Shown here one piece after another: positions 1 through 45,179 of a stretch of 64,000 bases of DNA (position 1 is its first letter; the number at the start of each line of letters is the position of its first letter). Source of the DNA: Polytrichum commune (taxonomy: Eukaryota; Streptophyta; Polytrichopsida; Polytrichales; Polytrichaceae); contig OX485804.1 of NCBI GenBank assembly GCA_950295325.1, forward strand, positions 51,260,429-51,324,428, written 5' to 3'. The notes beneath the pieces were generated by a model, which saw only the letters and a program-made list of their open reading frames with translations, was not told where the DNA came from and searched no databases. The position numbers and the translations under genes were made by a program.

Positions 1-2790
1 CAGTATGGTATTCACAAATACTAGAGGGCCATCTGGAGGTCTCCCTATGTTGGAAAGAGTTGAAGCAATTACAAGTGTAATACATTTCTTCTCCCTGCCT
101 CGAACTCCACTGCATGAGCCTCTATGTTTTATCTTGCAATCCATGTATTTGTTTAAGACATCACAATCTTCTACAGATAATGTGTAGACATCCTTATCTC
201 TATTAATGACTATTGAAATAATGCATACAACACTCTTCAAGCTAGTGAAGTCGCATTCGGCTCCTTCATAACCTCCATACGTGTATTCCAATCATGCAAT
301 GTGTTTGTAGTATTTCAGTTTCATATTGATGTTTTCATTATAAAGATAAATATTTTGGGCATAATCAACCTAGGCTCATTTTTCTCCAACAACCTTGACT
401 ATTTTTTGCACCCTTCCAATGTATCATACCAACTTTCCTTTACCCTCATCAAACAAGAGCCCTACATCATTAAACAATTCAACATGCTTTTGATCAATAT
501 CATACACATAAGCATATGGATATATATTCTTATATCTAACATGCCTCAATTTGTCCAAGGGCAATTTTCCAAGGGAGTTGTGAGCCCAAAAGTTGAGCCC
601 ACAATTGTTGTTAAACTCTTCAAGTCATTAGAACTTAGACTTTTATTTTTCATCAAGCTTATTAAAATATAAAAAGAGTGGTGTTAGTTGGATGCATTAT
701 TTAAAAGTTGGGCTTAGATGGTAGTGTTTGGGTTGACTGGTATTCAGGGGGATTACTTTGAAGTTGTTAATGATAATGCTTAGGCTTAGGATCATCAAAT
801 TCAAGCTTTAAGTCCTCAAGTTGGGTTCGGCTAGTTGAAATGGGACCAGTAGGTGTCCATTTAGGGGTGGAGGGCACTGCACCCTAGTTTTATCCGGGGC
901 CTAGGACCCCGAACAGTTAGGAGGGCAGCAGTTTGGAGGTGCGGCTCTCTCCTCATCACTGTGAACAGACCAGGGGGTTGGCGAGGCGGAGCTTCGCCCA
1001 AAAATCTCGAACGGGGAGGGTTCGGGGATTGATGCGGACTGCTGGAAAATGGCCAGGGGGTAAGTAGCAAGGAGGCGAGCTTGATCAAGTTGAGGACTTG
1101 CCCTCATAACCTTTGAAGGATAGACAAGGTGGTGGGTCGTCAAAAACAGGGGATGAGAGCGGAAGGTGGTATCCGGGAAGGAAGGGCTGCATTCTGCCGA
1201 AGTGGGTCAAGTAGTAAAGGGGGGGTAGAGCAAGAACGCTCAGCAATGAGCTGGGATTGCGGTGAAACAATGTGAGCGGGGAGGTGAATTTGGGATGACA
1301 ACCAGCAGGATTTCGAACTGGCTGCGGGTTACATGGCCATTCAGAGAGGTGCGGATGGTTGAGAATTCGGACAGACGAGCCTACAGGCATAAATTCAGGC
1401 GTGGGAATAATCTGGGCACTACAGGATCGGAGGACAAATGATAAAGCAAGGAGGGATGGTCCAGGAGACGGCCAGATCCGAATTCACAAGCAAAGGGCTG
1501 GCTGATTTGCGGGGTTTAGGCAGAGCAGCCAGATCCAGAAGAAGAAGGAGGAAGATTGTTGGTCTGCTGCAGCTGACTAGGAGCCGGACACCAAAATCGT
1601 GAATGGATACAGGCCGAGGCGGTGATACCACATAAATCATAGAGTGAGGCTGGCTGAATTGTGAATTTCAGGCAAGGTAGTAGGTAGTTAGTTGAATTAT
1701 TAAGGGACTAGTGCAAGTAGTGAGTAAGTTAATGAATTACCTAGGCAGTTACGAGTAAAGAATTAGATTAGGTGTTAGGCGTGTCTAGTTAATTAGTTGA
1801 GGGAGGGCTTGGATTCACAAGTTAGTGCAAAGTGTGCACTTGGCATTGTGGTAGACATTATCGAATGGGTGAAGGGGTTGTGTGCGTGGAATAGACACGA
1901 GGTGCGAAGTATTCTTAAATATTGAGTATCATGTGTTCCATAATAAAGAGTTGGTCATTTCCCAATAAGTGGAGTAAGGGGGACTAAGGGTGCTTCATAA
2001 TGGGAGGAACAAAGGAAAGGCATGTGAGCTCTAAACCCCCATCCGGACTATGACGCAATTAAGGGTGGAGGTTTAGGGCTGACAGGAGTGTATGTGCATC
2101 TCATAAATTAACATCATCTTTAATACTTGATCTTTATCGGTACTTTAATTGTAAATGAGTGTTTTAAGATAATTTTTTGAGCCCACACTTGATATTGTAC
2201 CATCTACATCATCAACATGTACTTTGCTCAAAAAGTACTTTGCTCAACATGTACCAATGTTGATTGCAAAATTATTGTGGCTTCTCTAAGAGGTCCATTA
2301 TCAAGAACATAATTGTTAAATCTCTCCATACAATTTTCATATGCACTGTAAACTAATAATTCACGACTAAATAAAGGGGGGCAAAGATCAATCAAATTTT
2401 ATGATGTTTGGAGTACTTCCTTCATGGAGTTTTTTCAACCCTATTTTGCGCCATGACAATATCCTCATGCCAAGCCTTCTTAAGATTTTTATCAATTATT
2501 GAGGCATAATCACACAAATTAGCACTTGTCACTTAGGCATTTGATAATCATCATATATTACTTCTCTTTTGGGATTGAGTAAATAATACTCCATCATCAG
2601 AATATTTGCTTAGTTCTACCAATGTAAAAACATCTTTCTATAGTTTCTCCGACAAAAAAATGTATGTTTGTTCTTCACTTGTTGTCAAAGGAGGAAAAAA
2701 AATCCTCACAACAATCTGAACCAATGATACCTAACGGGCATGACAAATAAGGACAATTATTTCTCATTATTCTAACATGATATGAAACAT
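1..2790 (-). pseudogene. decayed long ORF of unknown family, split by a solo LTR and cut by the window edge
   Basis: Reverse-strand translation of 2790-2085 and then 578-1 gives long protein-like stretches broken by a few stops and frameshifts. Recognisable pieces include CPLGIIGSDCCEDFF (about 2750-2705), KDVFTLVELSKYSDDGVLF (about 2630-2580), YENCMERFNNYVLDNGPLRE (about 2350-2290), KLPLDKLRHVRYKNIYPYAY (about 570-510) and ELFNDVGLLFDEGKGKLV (about 480-425). The LTR at 579-2084 sits inside the frame. Skipping the LTR and one copy of its 5-bp target duplication, the reading frame continues from the upstream to the downstream part, so the insertion struck an open frame. I do not recognise the family. 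A transposon-encoded protein is my first guess, a host gene the alternative. The 3' end lies outside the window. Confidence 0.55.
579..2084. mobile_element. solo LTR, 1506 bp, 5-bp TSD GGAGT
   Basis: The element begins TGTGAGCCC and ends CTGACA. It is flanked on both sides by GGAGT (574-578 and 2085-2089), the 5-bp duplication expected of LTR-retrotransposon integration. Its first bases and its last 45 or so match the element at 4906-7083, while the middles differ. The core (about 860-1650) is distinctly GC-richer than the surroundings. No primer-binding site, polypurine tract or gag-pol sequence is adjacent, so this is a solo LTR left by LTR-LTR recombination. The only ORFs inside are proline/serine-rich and on the minus strand; I do not regard them as genes. 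Confidence 0.8.
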
Positions 2791-4900
2791 AAGGTTAATG
2801 TTATAATGAAATTTTTATCTTTTCCAAATTTTTATCATTATCTAATGGCCACAAATTTTATTATGTCCATTTCAAAGTTTCAATTGTTGATAAAATCTCT
2901 AGAATGATTCAAAAAGGTTTTCTTATTATGTATCTATGAGATAGACCATGTGATTGTGAAATTTGTTACTATTTCCAACTTTCAAAATGCACACTTGATC
3001 TCATCGAGGTGCCATGTCAATGTATGTTGTTGTGTACAAGTGCTTTAGAAAATTATGCATTGCTTAAAGTGCATTCCACGTGTAATAACCTCCTTGGGGC
3101 TTTCATAACATTTGATCTCCTATGCCTTGGAGCAAAGCTAAGACATAAGCACCAGCAAGAGCAAGGAGCTTATGTTTGTGGATTTTATCTATATTTGGGC
3201 ATTCCTTCTTTTTATAGGGTACCCAAGAAACCCTTACTAATTTACAAGCAATCCATCAAAATTGAGGATTTTTAACAAGTTTCTCATAAATCATTACTAA
3301 AAATTGCAACTTTATTTGCCTCTCTAGAATGTAAATAAAATTTAATATCATTATAAATGTCATTGAATCACCTATTGGGGGTGAAGGGCATTCTATATTG
3401 GCCATACAACACCACATGGATGTACAAAATAAAAATAATATATATATATATATATATATATATTGATAGTGTTGACTTACACATAAGGGATGGTATTAAA
3501 GTTATTCATACGTTTCTCAAAGAGGGACGAAATTATGGGTTTTATCCTTCTTTGAATAAACTTTGTATTAAGAACTCGCTAGCTCATCATGTTTCAAAGC
3601 CTATTTGAAAGTTAAGCGCAAATTTTGGGACCTCCTCTTCCCACCTCTCAAACTTTGAGAGAATTTAGAATTTATAAAAAGGTAGGCGCACGCAAAGGCT
3701 AACACTTAGTATGACTTATGGGAACCACGTGCAGCGAGACTATAAATGTTTGGGGGGAGGGTAATTATCTTGCTTGCAAGCTATTAAATGACCCATTTAA
3801 TTATGTGACTTTCTAATTGTGTATATTTTGTAGTACCTTTCAATCACTTTAAAAGGTTGGGGTTCTTCATTTTCATGTATCATATGTTTATTATAAATCA
3901 ACAAGTGGTTGGTCAGAAGATTGCTATACCCTATGATTATCCTTCACATGTTGCCAATTCTAGTTGTTTATTCGACCGAGGCCAAACTTTGGCTCATTTC
4001 AAAAACCATCTCCAAACAAAGAGCCAGTAATTCATTGCAATGTAATTTAGCCTCGTAGCAATTTCATAAAGTTGTAATGCAAAACATACACACACAAAAA
4101 TGTTACACACTTAGAAACAACAAGAAATGCAAATCACAAAAGCATAAACCAATGACATCTCCAAACATAGTGATGGAAATCCTACTACATTTTTTTCATG
4201 TGAAAATATTACCATCACAAGCATAAAAATCATCAAAAAAGAATATGTGCCAACAACGAACTGCTAAGAGGAATAGAATTTGTAGTTACCAACAAAACAA
4301 GGCAAAAAAATGTTTGTTCATAAACACAAAGTTTAAAGAAGCAATTATCTATTGCTAAAATGATGTCTTTATTAAAGTGCTTGCAAAGTCTACTCCTAAT
4401 CCGTAAATAACATCTTTAACAGGTGAAGGACCTCTTTCCAACAAAGGTGTTGACTACAATGCAACTGAACTGTACAAACTAGTCACACAGAATTAGTAGC
4501 ATATACTATGAAAGCAAGCACAAAAATTGAATACAATATACATCAATATACTATTAAGGATTTACAAGTAATACTTCTACAAACCATTTGCTATTCCAAT
4601 GTCACCCACACACAAGGGTTTATCTCATGTCCATCACAACAACACACCATGGATGAAACCACGAGGCCAACCATCAACTTGTCCACCAAAATTGCAAGCT
4701 CACCCTCGACGAGTTTTTACATTGCAGGATCCAAACACAATCTGGTAACAATTCATTAAGAACCCATGAAGAACTTAAAAAAAATCCAAGGCGATGTCAA
4801 ACTCATCTCGATAAAAACAACCAACTTTGTCTTATTGGTTTTGTTGTTGACAATCGGCAACAAACTCATCCAAGGTTTGCAACATTTTTTCTCTCAAGAG
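2791..4900. other. intergenic, no gene seen
   Basis: AT-rich sequence between the decayed ORF and the second solo LTR. It holds a TA microsatellite near 3438-3463. ORFs here are short and lack protein-like composition, and nothing else stands out. Confidence 0.5.
3438..3463. repeat. (TA)n microsatellite
   Basis: An uninterrupted TA run of about 26 bases within AT-rich DNA. Confidence 0.9.
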
Positions 4901-4905
4901 TATAT

Positions 4906-7083
4906 TGTGAGCCCAAAATGGTGCCCACATGTGGTGATTAACTCTTCGAAACCAATTTTAGTTTGACTTTGATGTGTTATGACACAAAACATAAAAAGAG
5001 TGAAGTGTGGTTTGGATTTAAGTTTAGGCTTTAGAATGTGTTGTGTGATTATTTCAAGGTTGAATTCAATAAGAGGATGCCTTGATTATGTGAGTAAAGG
5101 GTAAGGTGAGGCAAGGTGAGCTCCGCGGGTTAAATGCCCACTTTTGGATCCACCTTGGTAGTTTAGGAAGAAGGAAGCTTGGTGGAAGGGGATTAGTCCC
5201 TACTTTGAAGGTGAAGGTTAAGGGATTGTGATTGGAGGTGCTAATCCTCTCACCCTATCCTCACCTCTCTCTCCCTCTCTCCCTCTCTCCCTCTTTGCTA
5301 CTTAAGGTGGTTTCTCTCTCATTTTCCTCTCTCTCCATCAAGCGCTCTCAAGGGAGCAAGCTCTTAAGAGCTTGAGCCACGTGTGTGGGTTATTAGTTTT
5401 TAGTGAAGTTAATTAGTTAAACTCTCCCTCTCAATGCCTCCCAAGTGAGTGAGCTCTTAGAGTTTAAGGTTGCACGTGTCGATTAGTTAGTAGTTAGTGG
5501 AATTAGTGTGTTAGATTAGTTCATTAGGAGCAAAGAAAAGGAAAGAGTAAGAGAAACTTAGAAAACATTTGGTTAGTGATTGAAGGGGGTTGTATTAAGG
5601 TGCAACTAGTAGGTGGGTTACCCATTCGGGTATTGGAGGTAGCTGGGATTACTGTTTACCTTAGGCAGCTGAAGGCCGTGGCCAACTGCAGCTGGGAATT
5701 ACTAGTATTTAGGCAGCTGAGGCCGTGGCCAACTGTAGCTGGGATTACTATCTACCTTAGGCAGCTGAAGGCCGTGGCCAACTGCAGCTGGTATTACTGT
5801 TTACCTTAGGCAGCTGAGGGCCTTGGCCGACTACAGTTGGGAATTACTAGTATTTAGGCAGCTGAGGCTGTGGCCAACTGCAGCTGGGATTACTGTTTAC
5901 CTTAGGCAGCTGAAAGCCGTGGCCAACTGCAGCTGGGATTACTGTTTACCTTAGGCAGCTGAGGGCCTTGGCCGACTGTAGCTGGGATTACTGTCTACCT
6001 TAGGCAGATGAGGCCGTGGCCAACTGCAGCTGGGATTACTGTCTACCTTAGGCAGCTGAGGCCGTGGCCAACTGTAGCTGGGATTACTGTCTACCTTAGG
6101 CAGCTGAAGGCCGTGGCCCACTGCAGCTGGGATTACTGTTTACCTTAGGCAGCTGAGGGCCTTGGCCGACTGTAGCTGGGATTACTGTCTACCTTAGGCA
6201 GCTGAGGCCGTGGCCAACTGTAGCTGGGATTACTGTCTACCTTAGGCAGCTGAAGGCCGTGGCCAACTGCAGCTGAGATTACTGTTTACCTTAGGCAGCT
6301 GAGGGCCTTGGCCGACTGCAGCTGGGATTACTGTCTACCTTAGGCAGCTGAGGCCGTGGCCAACTGTAGCTGGGATTACTGTCTACCTTAGGCAGCTGAA
6401 GGCCGTGGCCAACTGCAGTTGGGATTACTGTTTACCTTAGGCAGCTGAGGGCCTTGGCCGACTACAGCTGGGATTACTGTTTACCTTAGGCAGTTGAGGG
6501 CCTTGGCCGACTGCAGCTGGGATTAATGTTTACCTTGGCGGCTGAGGCCGTGGCCAACTGCAGCTGCGAGGCTTAGCAACAAACCACCATTAGGATATCT
6601 AGGGGTTAGCTAGGCTACACCCAATTAGTGGGTGTTAGCACATAAAAAACTAGATTACATTAGACCATTTTAGGAGTGGCTAAGTAGTTAGACCCATTAT
6701 GCTAGGTTGTGCTACGTGTGGGTTTGTATGAGTGTGTTTAGCCGTTGAGTAAAGTGTTTTTCAACACTTGAAGCTCCCGGTCAAAATAACTCACTTGCAT
6801 TATTAATGGAGAATGTGGAAGACTCTTGCAATGACAAGAAAAAAGAAGTGAAGGTTAAACGAGCGAGGGGAATGTCCTTAAGGGCATGTGTGGCTAAAGC
6901 CGCGGGGTGGACTCTTGAGAGGGCCAACTCTAGCACAAGCCAAGAGGCTAACATTAATAAAGCACATTGAGTGGAAACAATATGTGTTCTTTTGGACATG
7001 GTTCAAGGTTGTAAGAGATACATGTGATTCTCAAAGCCATCACCCGGACTAGGACGCTTAAGGGTGGTGGATTTGGCCTCACA
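4906..7083. mobile_element. solo LTR, 2178 bp, 5-bp TSD TATAT
   Basis: Begins TGTGAGCCCAAAA and ends CTCACA, so its first and last six bases are inverted complements (TGTGAG/CTCACA). Flanked by TATAT at 4901-4905 and 7084-7088. It shares its 5' start and its 3' end (about 7040-7083, around CCGGACTA and TTAAGGGTGG) with the LTR at 579-2084. It is longer mainly because of a CT-rich stretch (5262-5335) and a 49-bp minisatellite (5642-6562). No internal retroelement genes are next to it. Confidence 0.8.
5642..6562. repeat. minisatellite, about 19 units of 47-49 bp, higher-order trimer
   Basis: Units start at GCTGGGATTACTG and run through TTAGGCAGCTGA and a GGCC-rich part to ACTGCA. Unit starts are 5642, 5691, 5738, 5787, 5836, 5883, 5932, 5981, 6029, 6077, 6126, 6175, 6223, 6272, 6321, 6369, 6418, 6467 and 6516. 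Three variants differ in the GGCC part: AAGGCCGTGGCCAAC, AGGGCCTTGGCCGAC and AGGCCGTGGCCAAC. From 5883 on they recur mostly in that order, giving a period near 146 bp, so the array grew partly by trimer duplication. Units contain the palindromes CAGCTG and GGCC. The period is not a multiple of three, so the array is not selected as coding sequence. Confidence 0.93.
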
Positions 7084-21440: not shown

Positions 21441-22229
21441 CACGGGTAGATTACTTAGTGCATTTTAAAAAACAACGTGCGGCATAATATAAAGAGGATT
21501 AAAATCATTTGAAATAAAAATTATAAAGGAATTCCAAATAATGAAGGGGCCATTAAATGTAGACAATCCCATTATAAGTAAGTTAGATGAACATAAAACG
21601 TGGGCCATTATTTTTTTGTATAATTAATATAGGGGCTGAAGACAAGGATCCTAAAAGGTATGTTTAGTATGGTATGTAAATGGGTTTAGGACTCACGGGG
21701 ATGGATGATAATTGGGATTTCCGTCTGTCCAACAATGGATGAAAAGGGAACGCGCCGTCGTTGGGGTCGTCTTCCCCACGCCCATTTGCAGATGGCTAGG
21801 GTTTCAATTTGCTTCGCGTTTTCGTCCACTGTGTTTGAGGAGGAGGCTTATAGCCTCTTCCCGAAATGCCGCCCTCTAGGGCGGCCACGTCACCTCAAAT
21901 TTTTTTTAGGGTTAGGGTTCGCCTAGGGGCCCTCGCATTGATGAGAGCTGCAGCTTTCCCGCAGCTTTCCATGCTTTCCCTCAACACTCGTTAATTGCGT
22001 TAGGAAGTAGATTAGCTTTTATTACTTAAAAGGAATATAGAGTACAAAAAATTGCAGTGACTTGGATAATATAAGTAATGGAAGGGTGCAAACAAATGGG
22101 CCATTTTTTAAATTTAAATAATTATAGGGAGGCTTTAATTCAACCCTTGAAGGTAAATAGCCCCAAAACAAAAAAAAAACCCCCAGCTGCACGTGGTGCA
22201 CAAAAATGCCTTAGAGTGATCTACCCGTG
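21441..22229 (+). mobile_element. non-autonomous hAT element copy 1, 789 bp, TSD GTATATTA
   Basis: TIRs are CACGGGTAGATTACT on the left and the complement of CACGGGTAGATCACT on the right. Perfect 8-bp duplications GTATATTA flank it (21433-21440 and 22230-22237). An 8-bp TSD with short TIRs is the hAT signature. Both subterminal regions match copies at 23789, 31243 and 44630. This is the longest copy: its middle (21690-21990) holds a CpG-rich block that the others lack wholly or partly. No transposase is encoded. Confidence 0.92.
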
Positions 22230-23788: not shown

Positions 23789-24306
23789 CACGAGTAGATC
23801 ACTCTAAGGCATTTTTGTGCACCACGTGCGGCTAGGCGATTTTTGTTTTGGGGCTATTTACCTTCAATTGCTGAATTAAAGCCTCCCTATAATTACTTAA
23901 ATTTCAAAAATGGCCCATTTGTTTGCACCCTTCCATTACTTATATTATCCAAGTCACTGCAATTTTTTGTACTCTATATTCCTTTTAACGATGGCGCGTT
24001 CTCTTTTCATCCATTTTTGGACAGATGGAAATCCCAATTATCATCCATCCCCGTGAGTCCTAAACCCATTTACATACCATACTAAACATACCTTCTAGGA
24101 TCCTTATCTTCAGCCCCTATATTAATTTTACAAAAAATAATGGCCCACGTTTTATGTCCATCTAACTTACTTATAATGGGATTGTCTACATTTAATGGCC
24201 CCTTCATTATTTGGAATTCCTTTATAATTTTTATTTCAAATGATTTTAATCCTCTCTATATTATGCCGCACATCGTTTTTAAAATGCACTAAGTGATCTA
24301 CCTGTG
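23789..24306 (-). mobile_element. non-autonomous hAT element copy 2, 518 bp, TSD GTCCTCTT
   Basis: Inverted relative to the 21441 copy. The ends are CACGAGTAGATCACT and the complement of CACAGGTAGATCACT. Perfect 8-bp duplications GTCCTCTT flank it (23781-23788 and 24307-24314). Subterminal sequences match the other copies closely, including the palindrome-bearing GCACCACGTGCGG. Non-autonomous. Confidence 0.92.
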
Positions 24307-24314
24307 GTCCTCTT

Positions 24315-27300
24315 ATTTATCCACCATCTAGAAGCGGGGACTTGACCTTAAGACACTTAAATATAGGATATATATATATATATATATATCTCTTTTGGCA
24401 TTCTGTGAAGTGAATGTTGTGCAATTGGGAGATTGATTTTCAAGTTTCAATGTGTGAAATCACTGCCGTGGCTGGTCTGGTTCATATGAAGTGGATGTAA
24501 TGTAGCATTTAAGGTCGATTGCAAGTCGAAAGTCCTTCTCTGGGAGGCTCAGTCCAACCTTCTTGTCATGTATCAGTTGTTCAACATGATAATCATGTAA
24601 TTCAAGAAATTATCGGAAATGAGCCTGAAGTCTTCAACATCAACCAGTTACTTTTCAAACTCAACCGCTTCATCTGTAACTAGCATTCGCTTCTCTCCTT
24701 TTTATTGGTATGCTTTTTGCGACCCTTGATTAGTCTCCACTAACTTAGGTGCCTGGAGTAAAGGCATAGAAAAGCATGAGTTCGAGCCTTGGAAGGAGGT
24801 CACAAGGACGAGCACCTTGGATGAACACAAGGATGGTTTTTTGAAGAGAGGGTCAACCCATTTGGTGATTGGATCTCTCACTTGTGGAAAGAAGAAGAAA
24901 TAATTGAAAGTCAATGTACTTTGACCACTCCTCTAAATTGCAAACGGAATCCAAATGATATTTTATTAAAAAAAATCACAATAGTGAGAACATAAACCAA
25001 TTCTAAAATTTAAATATCTTTTCCTATTTATGGCAATCATGTCATTCACATACAGAAGAAGAAAAACTATTTTGTCTTATGTTGCTCCCATCTCTTTACC
25101 CTAAACTATTTGACCGTAAGATAACAACCTTTTTTGGTCAAAGTGTGTATCTCAAAATTTCACTAAAATATTGACAAGGGGATTTGAAACAGGGTAAACA
25201 AAGGCTGAAGGGAGAGGTCAACATCAACCCTCTCAAACCCCCTCCCCCCCCCCCCGGTGTGACCTTTAAGAATTAAAAAGATAATGGCCTAAACACCCTC
25301 ACATGGGACTCTCAAGATTAGATTTTGCTTATAGAAACCATTTTTAGTGCTTTATTGCTTTATTTGAATTTTGATTTGATGTAGCTATTGAAATTGTCTA
25401 ATGCTTATAAAAGCTTCATCAAACTACAGTTTTTAAATGGTCATGCTTTTTGCCTCATGCTAAGAAACATTTTGAATAGTTGATTACTTCAAGAGCATAT
25501 TATGCTTGCACTTATCCACCAATCTCCAATAACTATATTTCCAGCCAATCATATCAAACTTCTCAATGAAACAATGAGGTTTGTGATTTCGAAGAACTTC
25601 CAAAGTCCATGCTTATAATTTTTTTTTGTGGGAGGACATGTTCATTATTTTCGACTTCATGGATGGGTTTGACTTTGGAAAGGAGTTGACTTGTCTCAAA
25701 GTCTTACTTTATCTAATAATTTGTGTAGGAGAATTACTTCCATTGTTCATATGGATTTTGAACCACATCCCAAACACTTCTAAAACCCTAGTTGTTTTCT
25801 TTTGTTGTTGCCAAATAGCGGTTTATGGGTCGATTATGATATGGACATTGTTTGTGAGCTAGTTTGGAACCAAAGAGTCAACTTCTAATATAATTTTGGG
25901 CCAAAAAGAATTATATGGATGTGCTTGATGGCATGTGTTTGCACACTAAGGCAGGCGGGTCGCAAATGGACACTTTAAGTTGTGCGCCCACTTCTCATAG
26001 GATACGAAATCACACGCAATCCACATCATGTCCATTGTCACTTTCTCATCATGCAAATATCTCACTCAATGTCACAATGAAGATTAGTTCATTGTTTTCA
26101 TGCATTGATTATGTAGGCTCCCCCAATCATGTGGACTACTCAAGCTAGAATGGTTATCACATTTTGAACAGTTGATCTAATCTCTTTCAAATACACATCT
26201 TTTTGACGTCCATTCTTAGATCGAACTCTAACCTTTCATCACTCAAACATAGAAGGTCCACTTAAGACAAGTAACCGAATCAAGCCCACATACACACTAC
26301 CAGCATATGAGTCCTCGACAATCGTCATGTGTCATAGGAAGAAATCTACCACTATGTTAAATCTATTAACTTTTCCAGTGACATAGCACAAACTCCCAGT
26401 GACGCATGTCAACCATCCAAAACTCATATGCTTGTAATGTTATTTATATATAACCTTTGCAAGCACAATGGAGATGACTTCTATCATTAATTTTGTATTT
26501 GTTTTTGGTTCGTTTTTGGTACGATTGGTCGTCAACGACATGCTTTTGGATTGGAGCATCTTGGCCAAAGTAGAGTAAAGGCAAAAGCTACTCGATCGAA
26601 ACACTGACATGCCTAAAGTGGGGCCTTTCGCTTCATGGCCAAAGGGAAAGAAATTAAGTAAAGTAATGCAAGTGAATCCGTTTTCGATACGTTTTCACGT
26701 GCAACAAAAGGACAAGAGGACATGACAAACGAGGCCAAAGAAATAATATGTGAAGGCAAGGGAAGGGTTGACATGCCATGTCATAATTGAGGGCTTCGGT
26801 AAGTGAGACATGTGCATATATAGGTTACATACACCTAGTCATCAATTAACTTAAGTACCAAGTTTGTCTCTCTAGCTAGGACGTTTTGGGGGACGGAGCT
26901 TGTGTGACGGAGCTTGACTTATTAGCAATGTGTGTAACTATAAAGGTACATACACACGGCCAAGGCCGGTATATGTGTCCTTGGAAGTGGTTACATTACT
27001 TGAAAGGTGTGCTTGCGGTGGGCCGCTTAATGGAAACCGCAATAATTCACTTGATTAAATACCGCTCACATAAGTTACTAGAACTAAGGTAGGAAAAACG
27101 GAAAGCGGTGGACATTAAGCTGAATGATTGGCTTGAAATTTGGGCAATATTTTTTAGGGTTGGAGTAGAGGAAATGATGAGGAATGCAAATTGTTTTGTT
27201 ATTTTATTTGGTTGTAGATAATTAGTTACACTTTCCCAAAGAGGCAAGTAAGTTAAGCCCACTACTTGTGTAATAGAGTTTCCTTGATTTTAGCATCAAA

Positions 27301-31242: not shown

Positions 31243-31806
31243 CACGGGTAGATCACTTAGTGCATTTTAAAAACGACGTGCGGCATAATATAGAGAGGAT
31301 TAAAATCATTTGAAATAAAAATTATAAAGGGATTCCAAATAATGAAGGGGCCATTAAATGTAGACAATACCATTATAAGTAAGTTAGATGAACATAAAAC
31401 GTGGGCCATTATTTTTTGTAAAATTGATATAGGGGCTGAAGATAAGGATCCTAGAAGGTATGTTTAGTATGTTTGCTATGGTCTCCTATGTGTTTTCTTC
31501 ATAACTCTGTTTGCAATGGTATTATTGTTCGCACCCTTCTTTGTTTCCATGCTTTCCCTCAACACTCGTCAATTGCGTCAGGAAGTAGATTAGCTTTTAT
31601 TACTTAAAAGGAATATAGAGTACAAAAAATTGCAGTGACTTGGACAATATAAGTAATGGAAGGGTGCAAACAAATGGGCCATTTTTGAAATTTAAGTAAT
31701 TATAGGGAGGCTTTAATTCAACCCTTGAAGGTAAATAGCCCCAAATCAAAAAAAAAACCCCAGCCGCACGTGGTGCACAAAAATGCCTTAGAGTGATCTA
31801 CCCGTG
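31243..31806 (+). mobile_element. non-autonomous hAT element copy 3, 564 bp, TSD ATGGTGGC
   Basis: Perfect 15-bp TIRs CACGGGTAGATCACT and perfect 8-bp duplications ATGGTGGC (31235-31242 and 31807-31814). Ends match the 21441 copy closely, but the centre (about 31465-31545) differs, so the copies share termini with different fillings. Confidence 0.94.
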
Positions 31807-39510: not shown

Positions 39511-40106
39511 GTAAAAAGTGTCCTCGAAGATTTTTGAGCATAATTAGTCGAGATCCTAGTGCTATTCATGACGTCCACCCCAGAAAACATGTTGACACCT
39601 TTCAGTTTTTTCTTGGTAAAATGGGAGTATGTTCTATAAAATGATGCATAATTTTTCCGGATTTCCGGTTATTTCTCAAACTCAACTAGTTCATCTGTAA
39701 CTAGCAACCGGTTCTCCCCATTCATTGCGTAACTTAGTAAAGGGATGAGCATTGGAAACTTAGAAGTTGGCGTAAGAGAGGGGTTATCCATGATTACACT
39801 TGATGGCAAGTACCTACACAAGACCATCATTCCACAACCGTCCAAATATTTGGGCCTAAGCTACAATCATCACATTGAAGCCATTCTTGTCTTCCATTTG
39901 ACGGTCAACTTCGTTGTAAGATAGCGTAATATTACCCACCTTTTCTTGGGTTATCACTATCAACCCGACCTCCGATTTGGTATATAACTCGGTTGATGGT
40001 TGGTAACTTTATCTTTTGGATGTAAAAACATTGTTCAATGTAACAATTGACACTTAGCTTCACCTCTAACTCTTGAAAGTTAGAATAGACTTATATGTGA
40101 AGTCTA
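39511..40106. other. intergenic flank of the large hAT element
   Basis: No gene. One copy of the hairpin-like motif with CAACTAGTTCATCTGTAAC is at about 39665-39712. Its close relative lies inside the neighbouring element at 40708-40757. Confidence 0.45.
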
Positions 40107-40443
40107 CTTGGATCCCCGGGGAGATCACTGGGCGAAAATCGTAGAACCACATGCGATAAAAAATAGGGTCCAATATATTCATTGTAGGTAAATTTTGTAA
40201 AAAACTTACATATAATATAGGGGTTTGAAAATAATGAAAAAGGATTACATGTAAAATACCATCACATATAATGGCGTCTTTTATCTAGTCAGTACATGTA
40301 AAATAACATGGAAACAATTATTAGGGGTAGCGGGTTTAGGATAGGGTATGTGCTAGTGGATGAAAAGAGGTAATTTTCGTTGGAAAAGCTTGGATGGATG
40401 ACTTCGCATGCTAATTGGCTTCACCATTACTGAACCAAGGTAT

Positions 40444-40533
40444 CCAAAACTAGGAGGGAAAATTTGAACACGTTGGGTAGTGGACGTTCCAAAGCTGGGA
40501 GGGAAAATTTCAACACGTTGGGTGATGGACGTT
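40444..40533. repeat. 45-bp tandem duplication in promoter-like sequence
   Basis: Two exact-length 45-bp units (40444-40488 and 40489-40533) differ at about five positions, each containing GGGAGGGAAAATTT or close and CACGTTGGGT. They precede sequence resembling a plant 5' leader (TTCTTAGGGTTTAGCG). Confidence 0.85.
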
Positions 40534-41624
40534 AGGATTTCTTAGGGTTTAGCGTTTTTGTGAAGTTCCTTCTTTGTTGCCGATGGTCTCTGGGTGTTGA
40601 GGAGGTACGTTTACGTTGCTGGAATGAGTTTACGTTGCCATGAATGAGGTCTGGAGGTCAAGATTCCCCTAAAACGATGGGTAAATCTCCTAAGTCTTGA
40701 ATCTCAACTGGTTATTTCTGAAACTCAACCACTTCATCTGTAACCAGCGGCCGGTTTCCAGGGTTTTCTGTATCGCTTCTAATGTTTGTAATGAATGGAT
40801 GTTTTGTTATTTGACGGAGAATTAGAGCACTGTGCTTGGAAAGAGGGCACTGAGAGGTGGAGTCTATTCATACCATTCGTGTCTACATTAGGAAAAGGTT
40901 TGCATTTTCAAATGTAGTTCCTAGAAGAATTTTTTTGCTCCTAAATGAGCAAGGGTTTGATTATGAACATCTGCATTGGTGACACACATGCATCTCGATA
41001 TTAGAGTTTTAGAAATACACGAGACTCAGGAATATTTGTAGCAGTAATCTTCGACATCCATACACTACTTACACATGTGGACTTTCCTGGGCTTGTGCAG
41101 ATCGAATCTAAGGTTTAGGTTTCGAAGCAACTGCCGATAAAAGGAGAGGTAGTGAGCGATGTTCAAGGGAGGCAGATGATCCAGGGAGTTTATGTACCCG
41201 GTTGGTGAATGGACATTCTGAGGTATGAAATTCTTCAGAAGGAATAACTTCTATCTTGTTACAATTCTCAAATGACGCTTGGAAACATGCTTTTAGACAC
41301 ATCTTAGAATGCGCATTACCCTCCTCGTACTTTGAGGGTAAATGCCCTGGTTGTTCCAGTTACAAAGACATTGAGGTTGAGGTGATTCCTTCTATTGATG
41401 ACATAGACTGCTCCATCTTAAAAAGAAATGGCATTTTATTCCTAGATCTTCTCCTAGTGGCGAGCATGAAGTAGAGGATTTCATGTTTACACCCGAATTT
41501 TAACAAGCCATGATAAAGGAAAGGAATGTTACACTGGAGTTCACTATGTCAAATAAGCTTTGGGTTTTATATGAGAATTTGTTGCATGGAAACTAATCTC
41601 TGATGTAAGTTTGTGTAAATTGTG

Positions 41625-42610
41625 ATGGCCGAAACAGCGGGTCCAAAGGACTGGTTGAAGGCACAGAAGCGGAAAACAGTCCAGTTTCTCTTAAATCCCA
41701 TTGAAGCCTCACGCAACCACCTCAATTCAGCTGTGCTCCTTCTTTGTAAGTATTGCCTATCTGGACCTCTAAAATGCTATGAGGTGGGATTGATTACTGC
41801 ATGTGTTATATTTGAGCTTATTGTAGAATGGTAAAATAACATATCAATAGATTTGGCAGTGGTTAGGGTTGAAGGTGTCTTTCCATCCATACATTGTTCC
41901 AGTTGTCAGAAGCCAGGGTACTTTTGGGAAAACCTATGTGTTCATGTCAAGCACAGAACAAATGTTTGCCTCGGGTAGTTTTGGTGGATGTTTTGGTAGG
42001 TAAGGTAGATGAGCCTTGTTCGGTTACAATTTGTTGTATGCCTTACTACTTGGATTTGCGAGGTTGAAGTTTCTGTGCGTCTGCAAATGTATGTGAAGAA
42101 GCCTGGATCAATCCCAGAATTTTTTGGAGCTAATCTCGAATGGTTATGAATTATCAAAGTCCATTGACATAGAATTATGAACTATGTTAGCCATAAGAAA
42201 GCCACATAGGTCCCCTCCTCCGAGTTTTGTTGGCTATTGAGCCTAGAATGGTTAACAAACACATAGTCCAATCTCTTAGAAAACACAAGTTTTTTTGGTG
42301 TCCGTTCCTAGATGTGCACCAAACCACCCATACTCCAATGTAGGCAGCTCTATTCGACTCACTGGATAAATTCTATCTCTTGAACCCAAAATTGGATGTA
42401 TGATTACTGTAGACACAATTTAAAATCTTGAACTCCTTGATAGCCTGTTTTTTGATCGTTGATCCTTGCAGATCTGGGATTTCCTGAGTTCTGAATTGTG
42501 GGCTCTCTTCTCAATGGCAGCTTCAGCAGATGGTTCATCTTTTGAAAATTATGAGGAGGCTGGAAAATTGGTGAAAGTTGCTGCTCGTGATTGTATGCCC
42601 GCAGAGTCAG
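41625..42610 (+). pseudogene. captured or broken gene fragment, unrecognised
   Basis: An ATG at 41625 opens a 40-codon exon (MAETAGPKDWLKAQKRKTVQ near its start, NHLNSAVLLL at its end) closed by a perfect GTAAGT donor after 41745. A second exon-like piece, 42472-42610, follows a TTGCAG acceptor, reads FLSSELWALFSMAASADGSS and KLVKVAARDCMPAES, and ends at a CAG/GT donor. Direct joining of the two is out of frame and reaches a stop, so an exon is missing or the copy is broken. Another open stretch (about 41230-41474) contains WKHAFRHILECALP and CPGCSSY. I do not recognise the parent gene. Lying wholly inside a hAT element suggests transduplication. Confidence 0.5.
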
Positions 42611-43390
42611 GTTCCATCCTAGTTTAAGTTCTCATCCTAGTTTCAATTTTGCATTGGCTGCAGATTTCAAGACTGAAGTTTGGCTACAAGATCTGTGGAC
42701 ATGGCATGTAGTTGTTGTAGAGTTTTGTATGATATTTGCACATTAACACTATTTTTTTGTGATTAGCCTTAGTTTTTGTGGTTACCCTTGTAAATTGCAT
42801 TCTCAATTTTCTGGGATGTCAACAAGCTGCATGTATATATTTGAGATTATACACTTTCCGGAAGTATAAGACTTATAGACCTTGTGAAATTGTAAATTCT
42901 ACAAACATAAACTACATTGTGTTGAGAAACACAAACTGACTTCTATATCATACTTGAATTTCATTTCAGAGTTTACAACAATGTTTAAATTCCATACCTT
43001 TGCCTTAGGTTTATTGTTTTGATTCATTTCATGTAAGTTTAGCATTGTAGTTGAGCTTCACAATTTACGGTTGTAAGAAGAGAAATGTCCTTTATGAAAA
43101 AGAATGTTGTGTATAGAACCCAAAAAAATGAAGTGTATTGGAGTATAGTCAAAAGAATTGGATACTTGGAGTATAAGAAAGAAAATTTAGTATAAGTAAA
43201 TTAGGGTGTTTTTTAATGATTCCTCAAATAAGTACTGATAGGGTGTACTAAAATACAAGCATTTACCTTTATTTTGAAAAATACCATACCTTATAATCTT
43301 TTTTGCAAGGTAAATAGCCCCCCAAAAAATAGGTCCCGAACGCACGTGTATGCAAAATATAAGAGGGAGTGATCTCCCCGGGCTTGGATC

Positions 43391-44629: not shown

Positions 44630-45179
44630 CACGGGTAGATCACTTAGTGCATTTTTAAAACGACGTGCGGCATAATATAGAGAGGATTAAAATCATTTGA
44701 AATAAAAATTATAAAGGAATTCCAAATAATGAAGGGGCCATTAAATGTAGACAATCCCATTATAAATAAGTTAGATGAACATAAAACGTGGGCCATTATT
44801 TTCTGTAAAATTAATATAGGAGCTGAAGATAAGGATCCTAGTAGGTATGTTTAGTATGGTATGTAAATGGGTTTAGGACTCACCATGATGGATGATAATT
44901 GGGATTTCCGTCTGTCCAAAAATGAATGAAAAAGGAACGCGCCGTCGTTGGGGTCGTCTTCCTCACGCCCGTTTATTACTTAAAAGGAATATAGAGTACA
45001 AAAAATTGCAGTGACTTGGACAATATGAGTAATGGAAGGGTGAAAACAAATGGGCCATTTTTGAAATTTAAGTAATTATAGGGAGGCTTTAATTTAACCC
45101 TTGAAGGTAAATAGCCCCAAAACAAAAAAAACCCAGCCGCACGTAGTGCACAAAAATGCCTTAGAGTGATCTACCTGTG
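44630..45179 (+). mobile_element. non-autonomous hAT element copy 4, 550 bp, TSD ACGCTAGG
   Basis: Left CACGGGTAGATCACT and right (complement) CACAGGTAGATCACT, with perfect 8-bp duplications ACGCTAGG (44622-44629 and 45180-45187). It keeps part of the CpG-rich centre of copy 1 (CGCGCCGTCGTTGGGGTCGT) and has lost the rest by internal deletion. Confidence 0.93.

Follow-up and report, generated by a model that had tools for sequence, protein, structure and literature searches.

The capture of host-gene exons by transposons is a kind of event already known in plants. Pack-MULEs usually have long terminal inverted repeats (TIRs) and have a target-site duplication (TSD) of 9-11 bp; Helitrons have neither TIR nor TSD and insert between A and T. 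Pack-hAT and other Pack-TYPE elements are known from maize and rice (Gisby and Catoni 2022, PMC8903248), and the accessible part of that article describes non-autonomous TIR elements, with an 8-nt TSD in the case of hAT, which carry gene-derived DNA, lack a transposase and occur in multiple copies. For their formation a model of tandem insertion and subsequent re-mobilisation is put forward in the accessible parts of two articles (PMC13317346, PMC8903248).

Here we describe a locus in Polytrichum commune that resembles the Pack-TYPE elements in all these respects: it has TIRs and a TSD, codes for no transposase, contains copied host-gene sequence whose source lies elsewhere and is found at several unrelated sites. 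With Pack-MULEs it shares transduplicated exon-intron fragments that are amplified by a TIR element, but its TIRs measure 15 bp and its TSDs 8 bp, and it differs from Helitrons in possessing both. Compared with what the accessible part of PMC8903248 reports, the present case combines vehicles without and with cargo as well as several 3′ edges of the cargo, and the donor probably differs from the resident gene. We conclude with high confidence that a non-autonomous, recently active cut-and-paste element, likely of the hAT superfamily, caught a stretch of a host gene and that the loaded form was then amplified.

Anatomy of the element

The window, that is the whole 64,000-nucleotide stretch of DNA analysed, corresponds to C2:51260429-51324428, and the genome searched is an assembly of 407.8 Mb in 64 contigs, seven of them large. 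The element and its parts are located in the window as follows.

40107..40114, no strand: left 8-bp TSD CTTGGATC, same letters as 43383-43390
40115..43382, + strand: whole non-autonomous Pack-type element, 3268 bp, with TIR and TSD and 17 further family loci
40115..40129, + strand: left TIR CCCGGGGAGATCACT, 15/15 complementary to the right TIR
40115..40447, + strand: left subterminal region, 86-88% identity to short (~0.6-kb) non-autonomous relatives
40443..40532, + strand: two tandem 45-bp units, 89% identical, direct repeat
40661..40756, + strand: dispersed ~96-bp genomic repeat within the vehicle, from genome matches
40754..41158, + strand: B3-upstream-like segment, 69-75% identity to C1:57.54-57.55 Mb
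41321..42618, + strand: captured cargo, consisting of part of intron 1, exon 2, intron 2 and most of exon 3
41638..41745, + strand: captured exon 2, AG and GT borders intact, from the parent gene model and alignment
42521..42618, + strand: captured exon 3, 98 of 128 bp left, cut by an internal deletion
42619..42625, + strand: filler CTAGTTT at the internal-deletion junction, identical in the window copy (L001), L002 and L003
42626..43382, + strand: 3′ module of the vehicle, present in 18/18 loci
43368..43382, - strand: right TIR, 15/15 complementary to the left TIR
43383..43390, no strand: right 8-bp TSD CTTGGATC, same letters as 40107-40114

Both the TIRs and the TSDs are thus as perfect as an earlier note on this DNA had described them, and its statement that no transposase is encoded inside holds as well: the longest stop-to-stop frame of the element comprises 83 aa, and its six-frame translation (40115-43382) contains no Pfam family at E 0.1. 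The internal open exons have retained their splice signals. As an exact 15-mer, CCCGGGGAGATCACT matches the genome 34 times, compared with 0 for the reversed control; 33 of these matches are ends of the element family, and the remaining one (C7:22574137) lies without other similarity to it. The ~96-bp dispersed repeat is found in the window at 40661-40756, 39667-39713 and 24628-24684 as well as in L053 (282-1306), and at C2:3.398 Mb several copies of it, lying on the opposite strand, are packed into 1.1 kb.

Empty and loaded copies

Searching the genome with the whole element revealed a family of at least 18 loci, including the window copy, so that further copies with the same TIRs, for which the earlier note had suggested a search, do exist. 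The main pieces of the 18 loci are 94-100% identical, except for the left part of L021 (89%, with gaps), and the vehicle sequence common to the copies is ~1% apart in the 14 copies measured. The left end is missing in L011 and L028. Among the 16 two-ended copies, 14 are flanked by a perfect 8-bp TSD, each of a different sequence; L014 matches in 7 of 8 bp and L021 has none.

Seven loci (L014-L019 and L021) are empty vehicles, in which the 5′ and 3′ modules are linked by vehicle sequence and cargo is absent; five of the seven are ~2.4 kb long. Cargo or a remnant of it is present in 11 of the 18 loci (L001, L002, L003, L010, L011, L012, L013, L020, L022, L026/L027 and L028), and each of the nine cargo-bearing copies with two ends has its own, perfect TSD. 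In L020 and L026 the cargo is reduced to 145-189 bp. The copy L026/L027 (C6:40866989-40887990) is interrupted by an insertion of ~19 kb and still keeps its TSD CACTTTTC; the insertion has the ends CACTACTACAAA / TTTGTAGTAGTG, which we take to be those of CACTA elements.

Three diverged relatives (L023-L025) share 75-78% identity over the 3′ module. The vehicle middle is present in them, whereas nothing longer than 40 bp matched the cargo. For this reason, the empty state is probably ancestral. A search for the left end of L023 did not find it, and L049, fetched as an extension of L023, matched neither the vehicle nor the parent gene; translation of the middle of L025 in six frames gave no Pfam match. 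When the two flanks of the window copy were joined and used as a query for an empty insertion site, they matched the window alone and no second site. L019 and L021 contain an identical 340-bp segment at element position ~1165, part of which also occurs in the diverged L023 and L025; it is probably ancestral vehicle sequence that was lost from the other copies.

The source-type gene and the cargo

The intact parent gene that the earlier note had supposed to lie elsewhere has a counterpart on C5. According to a model made by eye, the complete gene at C5:27405299-27409729 (minus strand) has six exons with GT-AG borders and encodes a product of 265 aa, the N-terminus of which appears plastid-targeting-like, likewise by eye. 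The cargo at 41321..42618 aligns with C5:27407570-27408843 at 91.5% over 1306 columns and is a single continuous genomic stretch of the gene, introns included. In protein searches of the genome, exon 2 gave 9 matches and exons 3-5 gave 12, all of them on C5 or in element copies. The exon-like pieces described before are host-gene exons, as claimed, with their boundaries shifted from 41625-41745 to 41638-41745 and from 42472-42610 to 42521-42618; under the C5 gene model, the ATG at 41625 is intronic in the parent.

Open exons with intact splice signals would also be expected of a local gene, functional and single-copy or else decayed, that is flanked by TIR-like sequences by chance. This reading is refuted by the 17 other loci with the same TIRs, the two-ended ones of which have different TSDs, and by the complete gene elsewhere, whose exon 1 and exons 4-6 are absent from the window copy; we give it practically no credence. 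A single-copy functional gene without a parent and a match of the exons to a hAT transposase, the two outcomes that would speak against a captured host gene, were both not seen. Duplication of part of a host gene, as proposed from the window, is borne out by the flanking exons that the C5 gene has and the element is missing.

For the parent protein, the sole Pfam match was PPO1_DWL (E 0.041 and 0.076, far under the cut-off), and the best match in a search of the PDB had an E of 0.34. An assignment to Arabidopsis TLP15 was considered and dropped, as the one TLP15 peptide in the accessible part of PMC8346976 was unlike the parent protein by eye.

Side-by-side alignment of nine loaded copies visualized one common left junction, placed by the alignment at C5:27408843, and four different positions for the 3′ edge of the cargo: C5:27407076 in exon 4 (L028), C5:27407287 (L010), C5:27407459 (L011-L013 and L022) and C5:27407570 in exon 3 (L001, L002 and L003). 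The last three copies have an identical deletion junction, with CATC microhomology followed by the filler CTAGTTT. Since the same letters are found again 18 bp past the filler, it is probably templated. Because L001, L002 and L003 share this junction, they go back to one deletion that was inherited by copies which later moved apart.

Timing of the capture and identity of the donor

Vehicle divergence and a clean-region tree were calculated from 5 empty and 9 loaded rows (L019 and L021 were dropped, their left part not having been found by the anchor). The mean divergence of the left and right vehicle parts is 1.37% and 1.01% between empty copies, 1.13% and 0.94% between loaded copies, and 1.28% and 1.02% between empty and loaded ones. 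As these values are alike for both kinds, the capture falls near in time to the burst. For the clean-region tree, 4% of 200 bootstrap trees united the loaded copies in a single clade, a p-AU of 0.825 did not reject this grouping, and no branch was starred. The burst being star-like, such an ungrouped pattern is expected, and the case for a single capture therefore rests on the shared 5′ junction. A first tree, in which a fully supported split divided the loaded from the empty copies, was discarded, its columns being judged to mix cargo with vehicle middle.

In the cargo introns, divergence amounts to 1.2% among the copies (28 pairs), whereas from C5 it is 6.1% (8 copies). Had C5 been the donor at the time of the burst, about 1.2% would be expected; the difference argues that the present C5 gene is probably not the literal donor. 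Restricted to columns that every one of the 8 copies fills, the count is 4 fixed and 13 varying positions of 206 in exons and 55 fixed and 50 varying of 1047 in introns (Fisher p = 0.036, with small numbers; the p is 0.013 once L028 and exon columns absent from some copies are added, which brings the varying exon columns to 15). The four fixed exon differences from C5 are silent without exception, compared with 9 replacement to 6 silent changes in the exon variation among 9 copies (one-sided p = 0.054 against the fixed ones). To judge from these columns, the cargo shows no sign of constraint since amplification, and on the simplest reading it was an already diverged, functional gene copy when captured. 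We are evenly divided as to whether the donor was a functional homologue, ~5% diverged from C5 and absent from this assembly; it may have been another haplotype, a lost paralogue or a gene of a related lineage. The numbers behind this proposal are small, and differences in rate may have contributed, as may copies exchanging their vehicle ends.

Such exchange is central to a different explanation, according to which C5 itself was captured long ago, the cargo evolved under selection inside the element and the vehicle ends were later homogenised with those of empty copies. It would account for the gap between 6.1% and 1.2% in the introns and for the fact that 0/4 fixed exon differences alter the protein. 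The vehicle sequence, however, is without any split between loaded and empty copies, repeated exchange would be required, and the exons appear unconstrained now (13/206 varying columns against 50/1047 in introns). We consider an old capture from C5 rather unlikely and favour the absent, diverged homologue as the candidate donor.

Superfamily and search for a transposase

The earlier note had assigned the element to hAT, and membership of the family in this superfamily is likely because of the 8-bp TSDs and the short TIRs; the searches described below found no transposase with this TIR. The hAT consensus TIR is short and has an A as its second and a G as its fifth base. The TIR of the family begins with CCCGG, so that the G at position 5 agrees with the consensus and the C at position 2 differs, and relatives with CACGG agree at both positions; the CACGGG form of the TIR is close to the hAT consensus. 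The family TIR is one of a large set in this genome, in which the second base is C, T or A. Genome matches number 2284 for CACGGGTAGATCACT compared with 0 in the control, and 440 for CTCGGGGAG[N]TCACT compared with 1.

The relation of the termini to nearby short copies, also claimed from the window, is confirmed by four short elements.

21441-22229: short element, TIRs CACGGGTAGATCACT (0-1 changes), TSD GTATATTA
23789-24306: short element, TIRs CACGGGTAGATCACT (0-1 changes), TSD GTCCTCTT
31243-31806: short element, TIRs CACGGGTAGATCACT (0-1 changes), TSD ATGGTGGC
44630-45179: short element, TIRs CACGGGTAGATCACT (0-1 changes), TSD ACGCTAGG

Short elements with the TIR CACGGGTAGATCACT / CTCGGGGAGKTCACT resemble the family in their related TIR, partly related subterminal sequence and, in many of those examined, 8-bp TSDs; they differ in their length of ~0.5-1 kb and in that no cargo was seen. 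For eight ~0.6-kb relatives, the TSD was perfect in one, had one mismatch in three, two in two and four in two, and a strict scan returned a TSD in 1/8. The 8-bp duplication is present in L046, L047, L048, L052 and the first TIR pair of L051, and a matching one is absent in L050 and the second TIR pair of L051.

The hAT dimerisation domain PF05699 yielded 150 scored matches of 1060 candidates in the genome, and a comparison by eye of these with the listed TIR places (~100 per list) revealed no pairing. Five long hAT frames (L029-L033) have single TIR look-alikes with 1-2 mismatches and no facing pair around the frame, and in L052 a distance of ~3.5 kb separates a hAT frame from a short element of its own, again with no facing TIR pair around the frame. 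The 552-aa frame of L046 had a best Pfam E of 0.00094, under the cut-off, and matched no transposase family; the 120-aa frame of L047 had no Pfam match.

Two of the fetched loci deserve a description of their own. L012 contains, at 45-395 (C7:29703344-29703694), a frame for the C-terminal part of a hAT transposase, outside the element and ~400 bp from its left end. L046 comprises, at 174-5233 (C1:63608573-63613632), a 5-kb element with the TIRs CTCGGGGAGTTCACT and the TSD CTTGTCAC around the 552-aa frame.

That no transposase was tied to the TIR, and that its second base varies among C, T and A across the larger set, would suit a superfamily other than hAT that also makes 8-bp duplications. 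Against this stand the 8-bp TSDs in the family and in many related short elements, the abundance of hAT dimerisation domains (150 matches scored of 1060 candidates) and the CACGGG form of the TIR with its nearness to the hAT consensus. Membership in another superfamily is thus doubtful, and hAT is the assignment we retain.

Sequence upstream of the cargo

The 45-bp repeat, which had been called promoter-like, consists of two tandem copies in the window, 89% identical; it is a part of the vehicle with one, two or three units depending on the copy, and nothing points to a promoter role for it. Another part of the 5′ module (40754-41158) resembles, at 69-75% identity, sequence that precedes B3-domain frames by 0.3-0.9 kb in a tandemly duplicated region of C1. 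It has the orientation that matches the B3 frames and lies 5′ of the cargo. The segment may stem from an earlier event in which a leader or promoter was captured; since the comparison consists of two duplicated places, it may equally well be an old transposon common to both.

If the segment were a captured promoter or leader of a B3 gene, it might drive the captured exons as an expressed chimeric gene, a reading with which its position and orientation and the intact acceptor and donor of exon 2 would agree. Yet the similarity of the putative promoter is 69-75% only, the exon changes among copies look unconstrained and the putative product would be without the targeting exon; on the sequence evidence, we hold such a gene to be improbable. 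Nor does the cargo presumably serve as a functional second copy of the gene, because it is missing the exon for N-terminal targeting as well as the final exons.

Discussion

Judging by its anatomy, the element would move in trans, by means of a transposase encoded elsewhere. We propose that an empty vehicle of 2.4 kb took up one contiguous intron-exon-intron-exon stretch in its middle part, and that the loaded form would then have amplified in parallel with the empty one. The sub-lineage of the window copy would subsequently have lost ~433 bp at the 3′ junction of cargo and vehicle when a break was repaired with the addition of filler DNA; the deletion-bearing sub-lineage would afterwards have reached at least three sites.

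The capture itself may have occurred by template switching during repair of the element, or by tandem insertion and re-mobilisation. The order of vehicle left end, host DNA and vehicle right end agrees with the latter model as presented in the accessible parts of PMC13317346 and PMC8903248, but both routes yield vehicle, host DNA and vehicle and are therefore not told apart here. Apart from one site with 3 mismatches, nothing resembling the TIR is present in the 9 kb that surround the C5 gene; as C5 may not have been the donor, these surroundings are uninformative about the route.

What this locus adds is the complete series of states and the mismatch of the donor. As empty vehicles, loaded copies, a source-type gene and outgroup vehicles coexist in one genome, the order of events can be read: empty vehicle, capture, burst and erosion. 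If the donor was indeed an absent homologue, the loaded element would be the fossil of a vanished or foreign allele, and a foreign allele may have come by hybridisation along with the transposon burst. The combination of young copies with an older-looking cargo suggests a simple way of testing whether captured exons are records of lost or introgressed alleles.
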